58,644 nt of DNA, from assembly GCF_005047635.1 (NCBI RefSeq), contig NZ_SUKC01000022.1, positions 1 to 58,644 of the forward strand, read 5' to 3'. Both the position numbers and the translations under genes were made by a program. Numbering within the stretch: the first letter of the stretch is position 1; every line of letters starts with the position of its first letter. Origin of the DNA: Arthrobacter sp. CAU 1506 (GTDB lineage Bacteria > Actinomycetota > Actinomycetes > Actinomycetales > Micrococcaceae). The notes beneath the pieces were generated by a model, which was not told where the DNA came from, made no database searches, and was given only the letters and a program-made list of their open reading frames with translations. Below are positions 337 to 51,775 of this stretch, in pieces.

Positions 337-4371
<4,035 letters not shown>

Positions 4372-4723: not shown

Positions 4724-5731
4724 GTGAAGAAACGTTCGACCATGTTTGGCTTGGGTGCAGGCCTGCTGGCCACCACCCTGCTGGTTTCCGCGTGCGGCAG
4801 CTCGGCATCGTCCGAAGGCAACGCCGCCGAAGGGGCTCCCGAATCCGTAGAAATCGGCATCAGCCAGATCGTCTCGCATCCGTCCCTGGATGCGGCCCGC
4901 GAAGGCTTCAAGAAGGCACTGGCCGACAACGGCTACGTCGACGGCGAGACCGTGACTTACGACGAGCAGAACGCCCAGGGCGACCAGGCTACCGCTACCT
5001 CCATCGCCGGCAAGTTCGCCAGTGACAAGAAGGACCTCGTCCTGGCCATTGCCACGCCGACCGCACAGGCGGCCGTCCAGGCCATCGTGGACGCCCCGAT
5101 CTTGTTCACCGCCGTCACCGACCCGGAGTCGGCTGACCTGGTGGAAAGCATGGATGCACCGGGCTCCAACGTCACCGGCACCTCCGACCGCAACCCGGTG
5201 GAAGAACAGCTGGCCCTGGTCAAGGAGTTGAACCCTGACGCGAAGTCCGTCGGCATCGTCTACTCCTCCGGTGAGGTCAACTCCGGCGTCCAGGTCGAAT
5301 GGGCCAAGGAAGCCGGCAAGAAACTGGGTCTGGAAATCAAGGAAAAGGCCATCTCCACTTCGGGTGAGGTCCAGCAGGCCGCCGAGTCCATGGACGTCGA
5401 CGCGTTCTACGTGCCGACCGACAACAACGTGGTGTCCGCCCTGGAATCGCTGATCCAGGTGGCCGAGTCGAAGAAGATCCTCACCATCGCCGCTGAGGGC
5501 GATTCGGTGGAACGTGGCACGGTGGCCACCTACGGCATCAACTACGAAAAGCTGGGCTACCAGACCGGCGAAATGGCAGTGAAGATCCTCAAGGGCGAGG
5601 CCGATCCGGCATCGATGCCGGTGGAGACCCAGTCCGAGCTGGAGCTGTACGTCAACACGGCCGCTGCCAAGCGCATGGGCGTCACGCTGCCCGACGGTTA
5701 CGCAGACAAGGCTGACCACGTCTTCGAGTAA
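4724..5731 (+). CDS. ABC importer substrate-binding lipoprotein (TrpX/PF04392-like)
   Basis: The 335-residue protein starts at a GTG preceded by AAAGGA. It opens with a lipoprotein signal peptide whose lipobox LVSAC ends at Cys24. The mature part, with ISQIVSHPSLDAAREGFKKAL near its start, fits the PF04392 periplasmic-binding family, whose streptococcal member TrpX has been linked to aromatic amino acid uptake. The substrate here is unknown. It would be anchored outside the membrane and feed the permease and ATPase encoded just downstream. The operon probably starts at the promoter near 4539-4569. Confidence 0.88.
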   Translation: MKKRSTMFGLGAGLLATTLLVSACGSSASSEGNAAEGAPESVEIGISQIVSHPSLDAAREGFKKALADNGYVDGETVTYDEQNAQGDQATATSIAGKFASDKKDLVLAIATPTAQAAVQAIVDAPILFTAVTDPESADLVESMDAPGSNVTGTSDRNPVEEQLALVKELNPDAKSVGIVYSSGEVNSGVQVEWAKEAGKKLGLEIKEKAISTSGEVQQAAESMDVDAFYVPTDNNVVSALESLIQVAESKKILTIAAEGDSVERGTVATYGINYEKLGYQTGEMAVKILKGEADPASMPVETQSELELYVNTAAAKRMGVTLPDGYADKADHVFE

Positions 5732-6738: not shown

Positions 6739-7527
6739 ATGCTGGATATCAAGAACGTTCACAAGACCTTCTTCGCAGGCACCGTCAACGAGCGGGTGGC
6801 CCTGCAAGAGATCAACCTGTCCTTGACCGCCGGAGAGTTCGTCACGGTCATCGGCAGCAACGGTGCCGGTAAGTCGACCATCCTGAACATCACCTCCGGC
6901 AAGCTCCGCCCGGACACCGGCACGGTCAGCATCGACGGCAAGGACGTCACCAGGCTGGTCGACCACCAGCGTGCCCGCTACATCGGCCGCGTCTTCCAGG
7001 ACCCGATGGCCGGCACCTCGCCGGAAATGACCATCGAAGAGAACCTGGCCATTGCCTATGAGCGCGGCAAGCGGCGGGGACTGCGGCCCGGTGTGACGCG
7101 CAAGAAGCGCGAGTTCTTCAAAGAGGAGCTGCGCTCCTTGGAGCTGGGCCTGGAAAACCGACTCAAGGCCAAGGTGGGGCTGCTCTCGGGCGGCCAGCGG
7201 CAGGCGCTGTCGCTGCTGATGGCCACCTTCAGCAGCCCCAAAATCCTGCTCCTGGACGAGCACACCGCCGCACTGGATCCGCAGCGTGCGGATCTGGTCA
7301 GCCGGCTGACGGCCGAGGTGGTGGATCGGCACCAGCTGACCACGCTGATGGTCACGCACAACATGGAGCAGGCGCTGCGGCTGGGCACCCGCTTGATCAT
7401 GATGCATGAGGGACGGATCATCCTGGATCTGGACCAAGAGCAGAAGCTGAAGGCCACCGTGCCGGACCTGCTGCACGAATTCGAAAAGATCAAGGGCGTG
7501 GTGGACGACCGCACCATGCTCCAATAG
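6739..7527 (+). CDS. ABC importer ATP-binding protein
   Basis: The 262-residue ATPase shows a Walker A GSNGAGKST (about 37-45), the ABC signature LSGGQRQ, a Walker B ILLLDEH and the switch histidine in MVTHNMEQA. The His after the Walker B Glu replaces the more common Pro, as in relatives of this importer type. The ATG is one base past the permease stop, so the two are translationally linked. It is the energising subunit of the importer at 4724-7527. Confidence 0.93.
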   Translation: MLDIKNVHKTFFAGTVNERVALQEINLSLTAGEFVTVIGSNGAGKSTILNITSGKLRPDTGTVSIDGKDVTRLVDHQRARYIGRVFQDPMAGTSPEMTIEENLAIAYERGKRRGLRPGVTRKKREFFKEELRSLELGLENRLKAKVGLLSGGQRQALSLLMATFSSPKILLLDEHTAALDPQRADLVSRLTAEVVDRHQLTTLMVTHNMEQALRLGTRLIMMHEGRIILDLDQEQKLKATVPDLLHEFEKIKGVVDDRTMLQ

Positions 7528-47022: not shown

Positions 47023-48453
47023 ATGACCGAATCCACTGCCGTCCGCGCGCCCGGCGCCATGTCGGCTGCCTACCGGCCGCTGACGCTGGGTCTGCTGGCA
47101 GTGATTACGCTGGCGGCCTTCGAGGCAGTGGCGGTGGCGACGGCGATGCCCGTGGTGGCGGCCGACCTGGAAGGAAAGTCTGCCTACGGGCTGGCCTTCT
47201 CCATGTTCCTGACGGCCTCGCTGCTGGCCAGTGTGGTGGCCGGTGTATGGTGCGACGCCAAGGGGCCGCGCCCGGCGCTTGGTGCAGGGCTGGTGCTGAT
47301 GGTGGCCGGACTGGTGCTGTCCGGGGTGGCCGGGGAGTTCTGGATTTTCACCGCCGGCCGGGCCGTGGCCGGGCTGGGCGGCGGCTTCGCCATCGTGGCT
47401 GTCTATGTGATCATCGGGCAGGTCTATCCGCAGCGGATGCAGCCGGTGGTTTTCGGCTGGCTGGCAGCAGCCTGGGTGGTTCCCTCGCTGGTGGGGCCGC
47501 TGGCCGCCGGCGTGGTGGCGGAGTACATTTCCTGGCGACTGGTGTTCTACGGCGTGGCGCCAATCTTCCTGCTGGCCGTGCTGGTGATCTGGCCGCGGAC
47601 ACGCAGCGTGGGCGCACCGGAAAACCCGACGACAGACCGGCGCGCCGGACGCCTGCAGGCGGTGCGCGGCCTGATGCTGGCCGGCGGCGTGTTCCTGGCC
47701 CAGTGGGCACTGTTTGAAGCGGTCGCCGGCGGGACCGCCTGGCAGTTGGTCCTGTTGTATGCGCTGGCCGCTGGGGGAGTGGTGCTGGCGCTGGTGGCGC
47801 TGCCCAAGCTCATGCCGGCCGGGACCATGCGGCTGCGCCGTGGACTGCCCAGCGTGATCGCCACCCGGGGACTGATCAACCTGGCGTTCTTCGGCGCCGA
47901 GGCTTTCATTCCGCTGATGCTGGTGGCGGCGCACGGGATCTCGCCCGCCACCGCGGGCCTGGCCCTGACGGCTGGCGCGGTGGGCTGGAGCATCGGCTCC
48001 TGGCTGCAGGCACGCGTGCAGACCGCACGGCACCTGATGCTGGTGGGCGGCGCCGGTATCCTGACCGTCTGCATGGGGCTGATGGCGCTGGTCTCGGCGC
48101 CGTCCGTGCCGCTGTGGACGCTTATTTTGGTCTGGGCGCTGGCCGGGTTCTCCATGGGAGTGGCGTTGTCCACCACCTCGGTGCTGGTGCTGAAGATGTC
48201 CGCTCCCGAAGAGCGCGGACGCAACTCGGCGTCACTGCAGCTGGCCGACCAGCTGGGCGGCGTCGTGGGAACCGCGGGCGCGGGAGCGCTGTTTTCGCTG
48301 CTGCGCGATCCGGACAACCCCGGCGCGATCGGCGTCTACGTGGTGATGTGGCTGGTGCTGGCTGCGGTGGCTGCCGGCGGAATCGCCACCGGGTGGCGCA
48401 GCGCGGACCAGACGCAAGACAGACAGGAACAACGGGAGGAGGCCACCGAATGA
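47023..48453 (+). CDS. major facilitator superfamily transporter
   Basis: The 476-residue protein has 12 or more membrane helices and the MFS loop motif DAKGPRPALGAGLVLM between helices 2 and 3, in a form common in drug/metabolite exporters. Family position suggests a drug:H+ antiporter-like carrier; the cargo is unknown. ATG 47023 is chosen over an adjacent TTG. It overlaps the helicase gene by four bases (ATGA), an odd pairing of transporter and helicase that is nevertheless translationally coupled. Confidence 0.85.
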   Translation: MTESTAVRAPGAMSAAYRPLTLGLLAVITLAAFEAVAVATAMPVVAADLEGKSAYGLAFSMFLTASLLASVVAGVWCDAKGPRPALGAGLVLMVAGLVLSGVAGEFWIFTAGRAVAGLGGGFAIVAVYVIIGQVYPQRMQPVVFGWLAAAWVVPSLVGPLAAGVVAEYISWRLVFYGVAPIFLLAVLVIWPRTRSVGAPENPTTDRRAGRLQAVRGLMLAGGVFLAQWALFEAVAGGTAWQLVLLYALAAGGVVLALVALPKLMPAGTMRLRRGLPSVIATRGLINLAFFGAEAFIPLMLVAAHGISPATAGLALTAGAVGWSIGSWLQARVQTARHLMLVGGAGILTVCMGLMALVSAPSVPLWTLILVWALAGFSMGVALSTTSVLVLKMSAPEERGRNSASLQLADQLGGVVGTAGAGALFSLLRDPDNPGAIGVYVVMWLVLAAVAAGGIATGWRSADQTQDRQEQREEATE

Positions 48454-50237
48454 GCAATGACACACTATTTGGCGCGGGACCGGTGCTGCCGCCGGCATAC
48501 CCGGAGCGGGCCGCATGGGGAACGGCGCCCAAGCTACGCCAGTGGCAGGCCGAGGCCCTGCAAAAGTACTTCGAGATGGCGCCGCAGGACTTCCTCGCCG
48601 TGGCTACGCCCGGCGCCGGCAAGACAACCTTCGCGCTGCGCGTGGCCACCGAACTGGTGGATCGCGGCCTCGTCAACCGGATCACCATCGTGGCCCCGAC
48701 CGACCACCTCAAGCGGCAGTGGGCGGATGCCGCCGCCCGGGTAGGCCTCTCCATCGACCCGAACTTCAAGAACTCCGACGGTTCGCACGGCCGCGACTTC
48801 ATCGGCGTCGCCGTCACCTATGCGCAGGTGGCGATGAAACCGCTGCTGCACCGGGCCAAGACCGAAGCCGCGAAAACACTGGTGATCCTGGACGAAATCC
48901 ACCACGGCGGCGACGCGCTCAGCTGGGGCGACGGCATCCGCGAGGCCTTCGAACCGGCCGTCCGGCGGCTGGCGCTGACCGGCACCCCGTTCCGTTCCGA
49001 CACCGCGGCCATTCCCTTCGTGGAGTACGCCGAAGACAAGGACGGCATCCGCCGCTCGCGGGCCGATTACACCTACGGCTACGGCAGCGCGCTGCGCGAC
49101 CACGTGGTGCGCCCGGTGATGTTCATGGCCTACTCCGGCGAAATGCGGTGGCGGACCAGCTCGGGGGACGAGTACGCAGCATCGCTCGGCGAAGCCGCGG
49201 TGACCAAGGACATCACGGCGCAGGCGTGGCGGACGGCGTTGAACCCGCAAGGCCAGTGGATTCCCGCTGTGCTCGCCGCCGCCGACAAGCGGCTCACCGA
49301 GGTCCGCCGGGCCGTCCCCGACGCCGGCGGGCTGGTGATCGCCACCGACCACGACGACGCCCGTGCCTACGCCGGCCAGCTGAAGAAAATCACCGGCGAA
49401 TCCGCCACGATCATCCTCTCCGACGACGCCGGTGCCTCCGAGAAGATCGAGTCGTTCTCCGCCGGCGACAGCCGCTGGATGGTCGCCGTGCGGATGGTCT
49501 CCGAAGGCGTGGACGTCCCGCGGCTTTCGGTGGGTGTCTACGCCACCTCCACGGCCACGCCGCTGTTCTTCGCGCAGGCCGTGGGCCGTTTTGTGCGGGC
49601 CCGGAAGCGCGGCGAAACGGCGTCGGTCTTCCTGCCGTCGGTACCCAACCTGATGGAACTGGCCAACCAGATGGAACTGGAACGCGACCACGCGCTGGAC
49701 CGTCCGGACAAGGACAACGACGAAGGCTTCATTCCGGAAGAAGCGCTGATGGAGCAGGCCAACCGGGAAGACAAGGCCTCTGACGAGCTGACCAAGCAGA
49801 AGTTCGAGGCGCTGGACTCCCAGGCCTCCTTCGACCGCGTGCTGTTCGACGGCGCAGAGTTCGGCACCGGCGGCGAGATCGGCAGTGAAGACGAACTGGA
49901 CTTCCTGGGCATCCCCGGCCTGCTGGACGCCGAGCAGGTGGGCGTGCTGCTGCGGCAGCGCCAGCAGGAGCAGCAGACCCGTAAGCGGCAGCGGGCCGGA
50001 GGAGCGGCCGCGGTTGAGCCTGCGCCCGCCGTGGTGGACCACCGACAGCTGACCGAGTTGCGCAACCAGCTGGCCAAAAACGTCTCAGCGTGGTCGGCCC
50101 GCTCCGGCATGCCGCACGGCGTGGTCCACTCCGAGCTGCGCCGCGTCTGCGGCGGTCCCGCCGTGGCCCAGGCCAACGAAGAGCAGCTGAACAAGCGGCT
50201 GAAGAAACTCCAAGACTGGTTCATCGGCCGCAAATAA
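48450..50237 (+). CDS. superfamily 2 DEAD/DEAH-type helicase
   Basis: The 595-residue protein has motif I TPGAGKTTFALRVA, motif II DEIH in LVILDEIHHGG, motif III TGTPFR and motif VI QAVGRFVRARKR, typical of ResIII/UvrB-like SF2 translocases. The C-terminal 150 residues are a charged, Glu/Gln-rich helical region (RQRQQEQQTRKRQ). GGGAGGAGG precedes ATG 48450. The downstream repeats start nine bases after the stop. Confidence 0.9.
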   Translation: MSNDTLFGAGPVLPPAYPERAAWGTAPKLRQWQAEALQKYFEMAPQDFLAVATPGAGKTTFALRVATELVDRGLVNRITIVAPTDHLKRQWADAAARVGLSIDPNFKNSDGSHGRDFIGVAVTYAQVAMKPLLHRAKTEAAKTLVILDEIHHGGDALSWGDGIREAFEPAVRRLALTGTPFRSDTAAIPFVEYAEDKDGIRRSRADYTYGYGSALRDHVVRPVMFMAYSGEMRWRTSSGDEYAASLGEAAVTKDITAQAWRTALNPQGQWIPAVLAAADKRLTEVRRAVPDAGGLVIATDHDDARAYAGQLKKITGESATIILSDDAGASEKIESFSAGDSRWMVAVRMVSEGVDVPRLSVGVYATSTATPLFFAQAVGRFVRARKRGETASVFLPSVPNLMELANQMELERDHALDRPDKDNDEGFIPEEALMEQANREDKASDELTKQKFEALDSQASFDRVLFDGAEFGTGGEIGSEDELDFLGIPGLLDAEQVGVLLRQRQQEQQTRKRQRAGGAAAVEPAPAVVDHRQLTELRNQLAKNVSAWSARSGMPHGVVHSELRRVCGGPAVAQANEEQLNKRLKKLQDWFIGRK

Positions 50238-50245
50238 CGCTCCTC

Positions 50246-50284
50246 GGTGATCGACCAAGGCCGCTCGCGGCCGCGTGGAGATCC
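50246..50284 (+). repeat. palindromic repeat family A, copy 1 of the array
   Basis: The 39-bp element has left arm GGTGATCGACCAA, core GGCCGC-TC-GCGGCC and right arm GCGTGGAGATCC. It is repeated at 50344-50382 and 50512-50550, inverted at 50976-51014, and twice within hrpA. The core forms a tight 6-bp hairpin. Confidence 0.92.
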
Positions 50285-50335
50285 GCCCTGCGTGGAGATC
50301 CGCCCTGCGTGGAGATCCGCCCTGCGTGGAGATCC
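50285..50335 (+). repeat. three tandem 17-bp copies of the family A right arm
   Basis: GCCCTGCGTGGAGATCC occurs three times without change (50285-50301, 50302-50318, 50319-50335). Each repeats the right end of family A, so the array appears to have grown by duplication of that arm. Confidence 0.92.
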
Positions 50336-50343
50336 GCCCGCCC

Positions 50344-50382
50344 GGTGATCGACCAAGGCCGCTCGCGGCCGCGTGGAGATCC
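50344..50382 (+). repeat. palindromic repeat family A, copy 2
   Basis: This copy is identical to copy 1 over the 38-39 bp element, in the same orientation. A left-arm-only fragment (GGTGATCGACCAAA) follows at 50483-50496. Confidence 0.92.
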
Positions 50383-50396
50383 CGACGCGTAAAGGC

Positions 50397-50476
50397 CCGC
50401 GGTCGGAATTGCACGCGCTTAGACACCTCGCTCGTTCCTCGCTCGGCGATGCGCCGCTTAGCAATTCCGACCGCGG
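50397..50476 (+). repeat. long palindrome family B, copy 1
   Basis: Perfect 16-bp arms CCGCGGTCGGAATTGC and GCAATTCCGACCGCGG enclose a 48-base segment containing CTTAGACACCTCGCTCG and GGCGATGCGCCGCTTA. The same inner segment recurs inverted at 51068-51136 with one base different. It lies on the far side of the GIY-YIG gene from copy 2. Confidence 0.92.
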
Positions 50477-50511
50477 TACCCCGGTGATCGACCAAAAGCG
50501 ATTGCATCCCC

Positions 50512-50550
50512 GGTGATCGACCAAGGCCGCTCGCGGCCGCGTGGAGATCC
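50512..50550 (+). repeat. palindromic repeat family A, copy 3
   Basis: This is a third full copy in the same orientation, 46 bases downstream of the GIY-YIG stop codon (the gene is on the opposite strand). The rest of 50238-50595 holds only these repeats and no gene. Confidence 0.92.
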
Positions 50551-50595
50551 AAGCCTGTCGCTGCTCCGACAACCCGACGGTCAGCTGCCGTCGGC

Positions 50596-50865
50596 CTACT
50601 TCATATCGCTCTTGATCTCGTCCACTCTGCCCTCAATCAGGGCAATTCGTTTGGCACGGCTCCAGTTCTGAACCTGCTTCTCACGTACAAACGCGTCTTC
50701 TACCCGGCTGAATTCTTCGCAGTACACAAGACGCACGGGCCTGCGGCGGGCGGTATAGGCAGCGCCTTCACCGGATCCGTGCTCGCTGATCCGCCGTTCC
50801 AGGTCCCACGTACTCCCAACGTAAAAGCTGCCGTCCGCGCACTGCAGGATGTACATGTATGGCAT
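50596..50865 (-). CDS. small GIY-YIG nuclease domain protein, flanked by inverted repeats
   Basis: The 89-residue protein is a single GIY-YIG domain of the UPF0213/YhbQ-like type. MYILQCADGSFYVGST supplies the two tyrosine motifs, DLERRISEH the catalytic arginine helix, and EDAFVREKQVQNWSRAKR the metal-binding glutamate. ATG 50865 has GGGAGG at a good distance. Relatives include structure-specific nucleases and proteins without proven activity. It stands alone, with family A and B palindromes on both sides, which suggests that it acts on or spreads them; this is inference. Confidence 0.88.
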   Translation of the reverse strand: MPYMYILQCADGSFYVGSTWDLERRISEHGSGEGAAYTARRRPVRLVYCEEFSRVEDAFVREKQVQNWSRAKRIALIEGRVDEIKSDMK

Positions 50866-50975
50866 GCCGCCTCCCGTCCGGAGGACCAGTGTGCCAAAAA
50901 GTTGCGGTCTCGGCAGGCTGTTTCCACAGGGCACCGGCGAGCGGGATCTGCCCGCGGCCGGATCTCCACGCAGGC

Positions 50976-51014
50976 GGATCTCCACGCGGCCGCAAGCGGC
51001 CTTGGTCGATCACC
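50976..51014 (-). repeat. palindromic repeat family A, inverted copy 4
   Basis: The inverted 39-bp element has a TT loop in place of TC in the core (GGCCGC-TT-GCGGCC). Partial arms surround it: GATCTCCACG at 50961-50970, GCGATCACCGG near 51021 and TTTGGTCGATCACC near 51043. Confidence 0.9.
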
Positions 51015-51067
51015 GGAGGGGCGATCACCGGGCGCGGGGGCCTTTGGTCGATCACCGGGGCCGGAGG

Positions 51068-51136
51068 CCGGAATCGCTAAGCGGCGCATCGCCGAGCGAG
51101 GAACGAGCGAGGTGTCTAAGCCGCGTGCGATTCCGG
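51068..51136 (-). repeat. long palindrome family B, inverted copy 2
   Basis: Arms CCGGAATCGC and GCGATTCCGG (10 bp, perfect) enclose the same inner segment as copy 1, reversed. Another arm (GCGATTCCGG) appears at 51149-51158. With copy 1 it brackets 740 bp that contain only the GIY-YIG gene and repeats. The 50866-51157 gap holds nothing else recognisable. Confidence 0.9.
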
Positions 51137-51157
51137 CGCAGGCCCGGGCGATTCCGG

Positions 51158-51775
51158 CTACTTGATGACGTCGATGCCGTTGTCGCGGAATTCGGCCAGC
51201 GTTCTTTCTACGCGTTCCGCGTTGATGCCGGCCGACAGCGCCAGGTGCACTGACGTGGCGTAACCGGCTTGTGCGGCATCCAGCGCCGTCTGGCGGACGC
51301 AGTAGTCGGTTGCCAGCCCGGCCACCACCACTTCATCCACCTCGTGTTCCTGCAGCCAGTCGTCCAGGCTGGGCATCTCGGTGTCTTCTTCTTCCTCGTC
51401 GCCGTCGCGCTCGCCGGTGGCGACTTCGTCAGCCGGTGCCAGCAGGCCGTCGAAGCCGGAATAGCCGGCGTCGTACTGGCCCTTGCGGAAGTAGGCGTCG
51501 ATCCGGTCGGTGTCCAGATCGGGGTGCAAGTCCGCCCCGCGCGTGCCGGCCACGCAGTGCCGCGGCCAGCTGTCCACGAAGTCCGGTTCGTCGGCGAAGT
51601 GGCCGCCCGGATCCACATGCCAGTCCTGGGTGGCCACCACGACGTCGTATTCATCAGGCCGGGTGTCCAAGTGCTCGCTGATGTCCGCGGCGGTCTTCGC
51701 GCCGCCGTCGACCGCCAAGGTGCCTCCTTCGCAGAAGTCGTTCTGGACGTCGACAATGATCAGTGCCCGGGTCAT
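51158..51775 (-). CDS. pncA: nicotinamidase
   Basis: The 205-residue isochorismatase-fold enzyme converts nicotinamide to nicotinate for NAD salvage; homologues also activate pyrazinamide. The catalytic triad is the Asp in IVDVQNDFCEGG, the Lys in YFRKGQYDAGYSGF and the Cys in GLATDYCVRQTALDA. Metal ligands are in DWHVDPGGHF. An acidic insert (ERDGDEEEEDTE) precedes the last helices. Its ATG overlaps the pncB stop (ATGA), linking both steps of the pathway. Confidence 0.95.
   Translation of the reverse strand: MTRALIIVDVQNDFCEGGTLAVDGGAKTAADISEHLDTRPDEYDVVVATQDWHVDPGGHFADEPDFVDSWPRHCVAGTRGADLHPDLDTDRIDAYFRKGQYDAGYSGFDGLLAPADEVATGERDGDEEEEDTEMPSLDDWLQEHEVDEVVVAGLATDYCVRQTALDAAQAGYATSVHLALSAGINAERVERTLAEFRDNGIDVIK

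Follow-up and report, generated by a model that had tools for sequence, protein, structure and literature searches.

A stand-alone GIY-YIG nuclease gene of Arthrobacter sp. CAU 1506 and its association with hairpin repeats in Micrococcaceae and beyond

Genomic setting of the nuclease gene

The window, i.e., the whole stretch of 58,644 nucleotides analyzed from contig NZ_SUKC01000022.1 of Arthrobacter sp. CAU 1506, contains a block of 920 bp (50238–51157) that is occupied by repeats and a single nuclease gene and thus exceeds the 740-bp unit of the original prediction. The block is located between the genes for a DEAD/ResIII-type helicase (48450–50237, plus strand) and an isochorismatase-family, nicotinamidase-like protein (51158–51775, minus strand). 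In nine genomes of the same genus the corresponding interval measures only 0, 13, 26, 27, 27, 33, 33, 49 and 84 bp. Nuclease (none detected at E 0.001) and repeat block are jointly absent from these nine genomes, such that the gene occurs in only one of the ten (that of the window, G000).

Eight of the 14 gene carriers in the family, belonging to three genera, harbour the gene in this common helicase–nicotinamidase slot (window, L096, L098, L099, L101, L102, L106 and L108). Its orientation relative to the helicase gene is one way in six of them and opposite in two (L096, L108), for which inversion between the inverted flanking arrays is the simplest account. Occupation of a common slot by eight of 14 carriers fits long residence accompanied by loss and inversion better than free jumping. 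The proposal of a non-autonomous or self-moving unit is therefore only partly borne out: the block is indeed missing as a unit from the nine relatives, but this concentration in one slot points to old residence with frequent loss rather than free jumping. Signs of decay, i.e., broken frames or absent parts, are visible in the nuclease copies of L106, L107 and L108, where some flank repeats remain, as if the nuclease–repeat pair were being lost. A clean empty site was also sought at a second repeat location (C43:37770), where the left and right matches of the relatives fell at different places.

The nuclease and its upstream region

The gene (coding region 50599–50865, minus strand; stop codon 50596–50598) encodes a stand-alone, UPF0213-like GIY-YIG nuclease of 89 amino acids, in agreement with the lone 89-residue GIY-YIG gene proposed earlier. 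The Pfam GIY-YIG match (E 3.2e-17) spans residues 1–72, and the AlphaFold model has a pLDDT of 93.2 and a pTM of 0.83. Among proteins of solved structure, the UPF0213 members 1zg2 (BH0048) and 1ywl (EF2693) are closest in sequence, with profile E-values of 2.5e-21 and 4.1e-17, respectively; similarity to 1zg2 covers residues 3–78. In an alignment of 80 nucleases, comprising that of the window and 79 of 80 relatives (L024 left out for its early stop), residues Y15, G17, E62, K63, Q66, W68 and K72 are invariant, and R25 is kept in 79 and Y5 in 78 sequences. Given the conserved catalytic-site residues, the nuclease is probably active.

A weak DnaA-box-like site, TTTCCACA (50921–50928, plus strand), is located upstream of the start of the nuclease gene, and its position is conserved in many relatives. 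Within 160 bp upstream, TNTCCACA is present at 19 of 40 actinobacterial loci compared to 6 of 1436 control segments, with no enrichment in Chloroflexi (0/19) or in a Bacteroidota-rich group (1/19). Considering the window together with the 40 actinobacterial and 11 family loci, 29 of these 52 carry TNTCCACA within 120 bp upstream as compared to a mean of 0.46 over 210 letter permutations, the runner-up permutation (20 loci) representing the identical site in shifted form. When the distance is extended to 200 bp, the motif is found at 30 of 54 loci, in 28 of them 45–80 bp before the start and in both orientations; distances are 103 bp in L107 and 110 bp in L106. The motif often reads TTATCCACA or TTGTCCACA (e.g., L016, L018, L033, L044 and L104). 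According to PMC4285127, TTGTCCACA is the high-affinity DnaA box in Mycobacterium tuberculosis and Streptomyces coelicolor. The window's own TTTCCACA is weaker. The conserved upstream site suggests replication-linked control of the nuclease via a putative DnaA box.

The first repeat

Three identical full copies (38 bp each) of a first repeat are present on the plus strand (50246–50283, 50344–50381 and 50512–50549), and a full inverted copy with one mismatch is located on the other side of the gene (50977–51014, minus strand). They are accompanied by three tandem 3′-half copies with a 17-bp period (50290–50334, starting at 50290, 50307 and 50324, plus strand), a 5′-half copy at 50483–50494 (plus strand), a 3′-half copy at 50961–50971 (minus strand) and a 5′-half copy at 51045–51056 (minus strand). 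Three direct left copies and one inverted right copy had been predicted as such; the supposed 39-bp palindrome turned out to be imperfect, with full copies of 38 bp. Elsewhere in the window, full copies lie at 1340–1377 (plus) and 3018–3055 (minus) and half copies at 6956, 32750 and 54316. Read on the opposite strand, the repeat has the layout GATCTCCACGC-stem-loop-TTGGTCGATCACC, as in the flank cores of other relatives.

Allowing up to three mismatches, the first repeat was found at 10 places in the 4.24-Mb genome (none for the reversed control pattern), and the looser pattern GATCGACCA-N5-35-TGGAGATC yielded 15 matches, two of which overlap, versus none for the control. A strict pattern matched 19 times in G000, once each in two congeners and never in the other seven; the two single matches are near-identical in sequence and probably represent one conserved site. 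This strict pattern misses copies ending TGGAGAYC, and a looser pattern was used for the family counts given below. When the best 40 candidates per genome were scored, a 1.1-kb piece containing two repeats was recovered from at least 54 places in its own genome, while its repeat part gave a single 35-base match (in G005) among the nine congeners. Of 20 stretches sampled from the own genome, 16 had all their repeat halves on one strand.

A lone copy of the first repeat folds no better than shuffled sequences (z −0.22) and forms an imperfect hairpin, yet 14 distinct copies covary. For this set of 35-base copies (40-base and 36-base types left out), 95.8 % of the hairpin cells are paired versus 83.9 % in shuffles (0/500), and the stem covariation score amounts to 0.330 versus 0.127 (0/500). 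A slid alignment of the copies reached at most 43.5 % pairing and a covariation of 0.067. Two of five covariation measures do not exceed the shuffles, namely pairs changed on both sides (5 versus 3.5; 61/500) and further pair types (5 versus 7.1; 493/500). Taken together, the stem of the first repeat stays paired while its letters change.

The second hairpin repeat

A second repeat, with a conserved loop and a stem of its own, brackets the gene at 50397–50476 (plus strand) and 51068–51136 (minus strand). The predicted inverted pair of longer palindromes is real: its members lie in opposite orientation, share 91 % identity over 65 nt and both form strong hairpins (z −5.15 and −3.70). The exact 24-base core occurs in four copies in the own genome, all of them within hairpins whose outer stems vary by place and nevertheless pair well, and it is absent from 295 other genomes of the class; looser forms were searched within the own genome. 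A widespread family, as judged from the exact core among these 296 genomes, was thus rejected. Membership of this palindrome in the nuclease system, as implied by the original prediction, finds no support, and position is the one tie between the two. The core appears to be bounded by short TAAGCG-like direct repeats. This hairpin family, with its conserved core in locus-specific complementary stems, was also noticed at L013 and L014.

Repeat number and gene presence in the family

The nuclease is encoded in 14 of 295 family genomes, distributed over 6 of 32 genera. The loose first-repeat pattern matched 83 (own genome), 71, 48, 45, 8, 9, 169, 6, 20, 42, 57, 25, 6 and 30 times in these carriers, corresponding to a median of 36 versus 4 in the 281 non-carriers (maximum 22; Mann–Whitney p 9e-8, a rank test that ignores shared descent). 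At least 25 matches were obtained for 9 of the 14 carriers and for none of the 281 non-carriers. The repeats are hence not equally abundant in genomes devoid of the gene, which supports the proposed coupling of nuclease and first repeat. Altogether, 280 genomes had a match with the loose pattern; reversed control patterns gave 0–3 matches per strand, and the matches in non-carriers are probably largely due to chance. Within one genus (g24), the first pattern likewise yields higher counts in 7 carriers than in 15 non-carriers (p 2e-4, shared descent being ignored by the rank test).

Three of the five carriers with low counts possess a variant repeat of their own: around the gene of G109, G138 and G164 a different consensus is found (GGTTGAG...TCGAAACC). 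A variant pattern, chosen after inspection of the flanks of the low carriers, was applied to 41 chosen genomes including all those of genera g7 and g9. In g7, where the first pattern fails to separate the carriers (G109 with 8 and G138 with 9 matches versus 22 in the non-carrier G175), the variant pattern gave 27 and 57 matches in the carriers versus 0–11 in 13 non-carriers (p 0.0095, ignoring shared descent). In g9, the carriers G164 and G288 had 21 and 37 matches versus 0–10 in 21 non-carriers (p 0.004, with the same neglect of descent). Low counts by both the first and the variant pattern (6 and 3, respectively) were obtained for G276, the nuclease copy of which looks decayed, as do those of G181 and G084 (shorter matches; sequence). 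Five genomes in which no nuclease was detected (G090, G125, G206, G234 and G017) contain 7–11 variant repeats each, possibly remnants after gene loss.

Variant copies cluster around the gene in G109, where 24 of 27 are no more than 40 kb away from it (0.5 expected under uniform distribution), and in G164, where this applies to 15 of 21 for a distance of 60 kb (0.6 expected). The listed copies of G138 (11 of 57) are all more than 1.6 Mb away from the gene, so the local pile-up may not be general.

Relatives beyond the family and their flanks

A genome scan yielded 98 relatives, 80 of which were kept: 40 from Actinobacteria, 19 from Chloroflexi, 20 from a Bacteroidota-rich rest (also spanning Ignavibacteria, Spirochaetes, Neomarinimicrobiota and Cloacimonadota) and one more. 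For most loci the gene end was fixed at position 5260, so the flanks as counted may take in some tens of coding bases. In 68 of the 80 relatives the 450-base flanks were richer in repeated 14-mers than each of the 4 to 20 positions that served as controls for a given locus, meaning that orthologues lacking flanking repeats, which would have contradicted the proposed coupling, are not the rule. The other 12 did not surpass their controls, and L042, L059 and L068 were devoid of any repeat by the 14-mer measure; L042 nonetheless holds the Chloroflexi core motif. When the 13 family loci were added (93 loci in total, two apparently duplicating L017 and L022), the flanks shared at least 30 bases of 12-mers at 65 loci versus 7 of 919 control positions.

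Core motifs recur in these flanks. TCTCGATAC and TACTCGACC were both present in 19 of 19 Chloroflexi flanks (5 and 4 of 107 controls, respectively) as well as in 9 and 10, respectively, of the 40 actinobacterial flanks (1 and 4 of 260 controls), and CCTCGATAC was found in 6 of 20 flanks of the Bacteroidota-rich group (1 of 119 controls). A strict rule of inverted flanks had to be rejected, with 37 of the 93 loci more inverted, 44 more direct and 12 equal. Outside the Micrococcaceae (77 loci), shared flank repeats were direct at 43 and inverted at 23 loci. Among the Micrococcaceae loci L096–L108, flanks were inverted in 12 of 13, those of L106 sharing no repeats, and the flank repeats of L016, also from this family, are direct.

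An origin from phages or plasmids was rejected, because viral and plasmid relatives are few and the nuclease matches no PHROGs or PADLOC family. The viral scan returned three distant relatives (41 %), and 13 of 72,556 plasmid records matched at E 1e-8, all with less than 60 % identity. Eight of these 13 were checked for flank repeats: four surpassed their 9 controls, and no flank repeats were found for the gene from Acidiphilium or for the three from Firmicutes, two of which are of the yazA type, so that flanking repeats mark only part of the wider family. On plasmid p1 of Planktothrix agardhii (L168), a distant GIY-YIG relative has an MmeI-type restriction enzyme on one side and DISARM drmA on the other, its flanks being strongly repeated (446 of 900 bases).

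Comparison with known systems

Small GIY-YIG enzymes termed Ssn cut their many-copy genomic repeat as single strands, and the repeats around the ssn gene are believed to be part of the Ssn system. Reportedly, Ssn were described by Chenal et al. in Nat Commun 2025 as site-specific ssDNA nucleases with NTS repeats. The window resembles this system in having a stand-alone GIY-YIG protein (as judged from Pfam, profile match and AlphaFold model) and a cognate repeat in many genomic copies, which would serve as the enzyme's target. By this likeness, the nuclease–repeat pair probably belongs to the Ssn kind, and the earlier statement that no system of this kind had been described is not supported. 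Among the matches listed in a literature search, no paper linked GIY-YIG enzymes with REPs, and most dealt with fungal mitochondria.

A further likeness exists to the RAYT/REP systems, in which, according to PMC2817692 and PMC3733652, the gene of a DNA-cutting enzyme is flanked by inverted REPs with genome-wide copies and preserved palindromicity. Correspondingly, inverted repeats flank the gene in the window and at the family loci named above (direct ones being commoner outside the family), and repeat number is associated with gene presence in the family genomes. The local pile-up in G109 and G164 resembles the accumulation of REPs near the gene of some RAYTs that is reported in PMC2817692. 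However, only a GIY-YIG domain is present here instead of the HUH/Y1 tyrosine transposase (Transposase_17) of RAYTs, the window's repeats carry no GTAG tag, and the repeat halves mostly run along one strand as described above. Since the enzyme class differs, the system of the window is no RAYT. CGTC-tagged REPs, according to PMC3733652 short palindromic repeats apparently without a dedicated transposase, are also short palindromes, but their tag differs from the repeats of the window. UPF0213 proteins (1zg2, 1ywl; YazA of Bacillus) share the sequence family of the window's nuclease, but the two yazA-type genes examined (L169, L171) are located in a holB-yabA-rsmI row and have no flank repeats.

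Proposed function and alternatives

We favour, as the rather probable interpretation, that the GIY-YIG nuclease recognises hairpin repeats, most likely in single-stranded form, the number of which depends on the nuclease. The enzyme would act on the repeats around its own gene as well as on those scattered over the genome, and its activity would keep and probably multiply them, as is thought for RAYT transposases acting on REPs. Hairpins exposed during replication or DNA uptake may be nicked, and repair copying after nicking would then generate new repeat copies near and far. The single-stranded substrate, the cleavage and the seeding of copies are what we infer from the stem covariation, the gene-dependence of repeat number and the RAYT analogy.

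The repeats may instead be marks by which the nuclease cuts incoming or exposed ssDNA, thereby tuning transformation and genome exchange, with no spreading element involved and repeat number growing by selection and recombination. Ssn of Neisseria is said to have a role in tuning transformation. The identical anatomy and the same dependence of the repeats on the gene agree with such a function, and the scarcity of relatives in viruses and plasmids is as expected for a chromosomal function; the clustering of copies around the gene of G109 and G164 and the wide spread of copy numbers (6 to 169) rather resemble the outcome of amplification from a source, so that we regard it as unlikely, though worth serious consideration. 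That the gene is a mere passenger in repeat-rich intergenic DNA, the repeats having spread by other means, is suggested by the convergent orientation of the genes framing the block, a setting in which repeats of this sort often accumulate, and by the control positions of the flank test with 80 relatives, which are probably mostly coding. Contrasting this, carriers differ from non-carriers in the family and within genera, flank repeats recur in several phyla, and Chloroflexi as well as some of the Actinobacteria have matching core motifs beside the gene, rendering a passenger role very improbable. An equally remote explanation takes the arrays as terminators or attenuators that insulate the nuclease gene and were multiplied by recombination; the strength of the second-family hairpins would agree with it, but dozens of distant copies tracking gene presence would be left unexplained.

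As an extension of the favoured nuclease–repeat interpretation, one may speculate that hairpin repeats in several phyla are generated and spread by GIY-YIG nucleases rather than by HUH transposases, with cutting timed to replication via the upstream DnaA box in many Actinobacteria, and that these nucleases are candidate partners of orphan REP families; we put this forward tentatively, as a possibility that we would not yet call probable. REP-like repeats are common in bacteria, one whole class apparently being without a dedicated transposase according to PMC3733652. The gene–repeat association over 295 genomes, the clean empty site and the DnaA-box-like site make it directly testable whether, and when in the cell cycle, a GIY-YIG nuclease makes repeats. 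If true, REP biology would involve GIY-YIG nucleases as a second class of enzymes, and site-specific nucleases with readable cognate sites may provide a toolbox.
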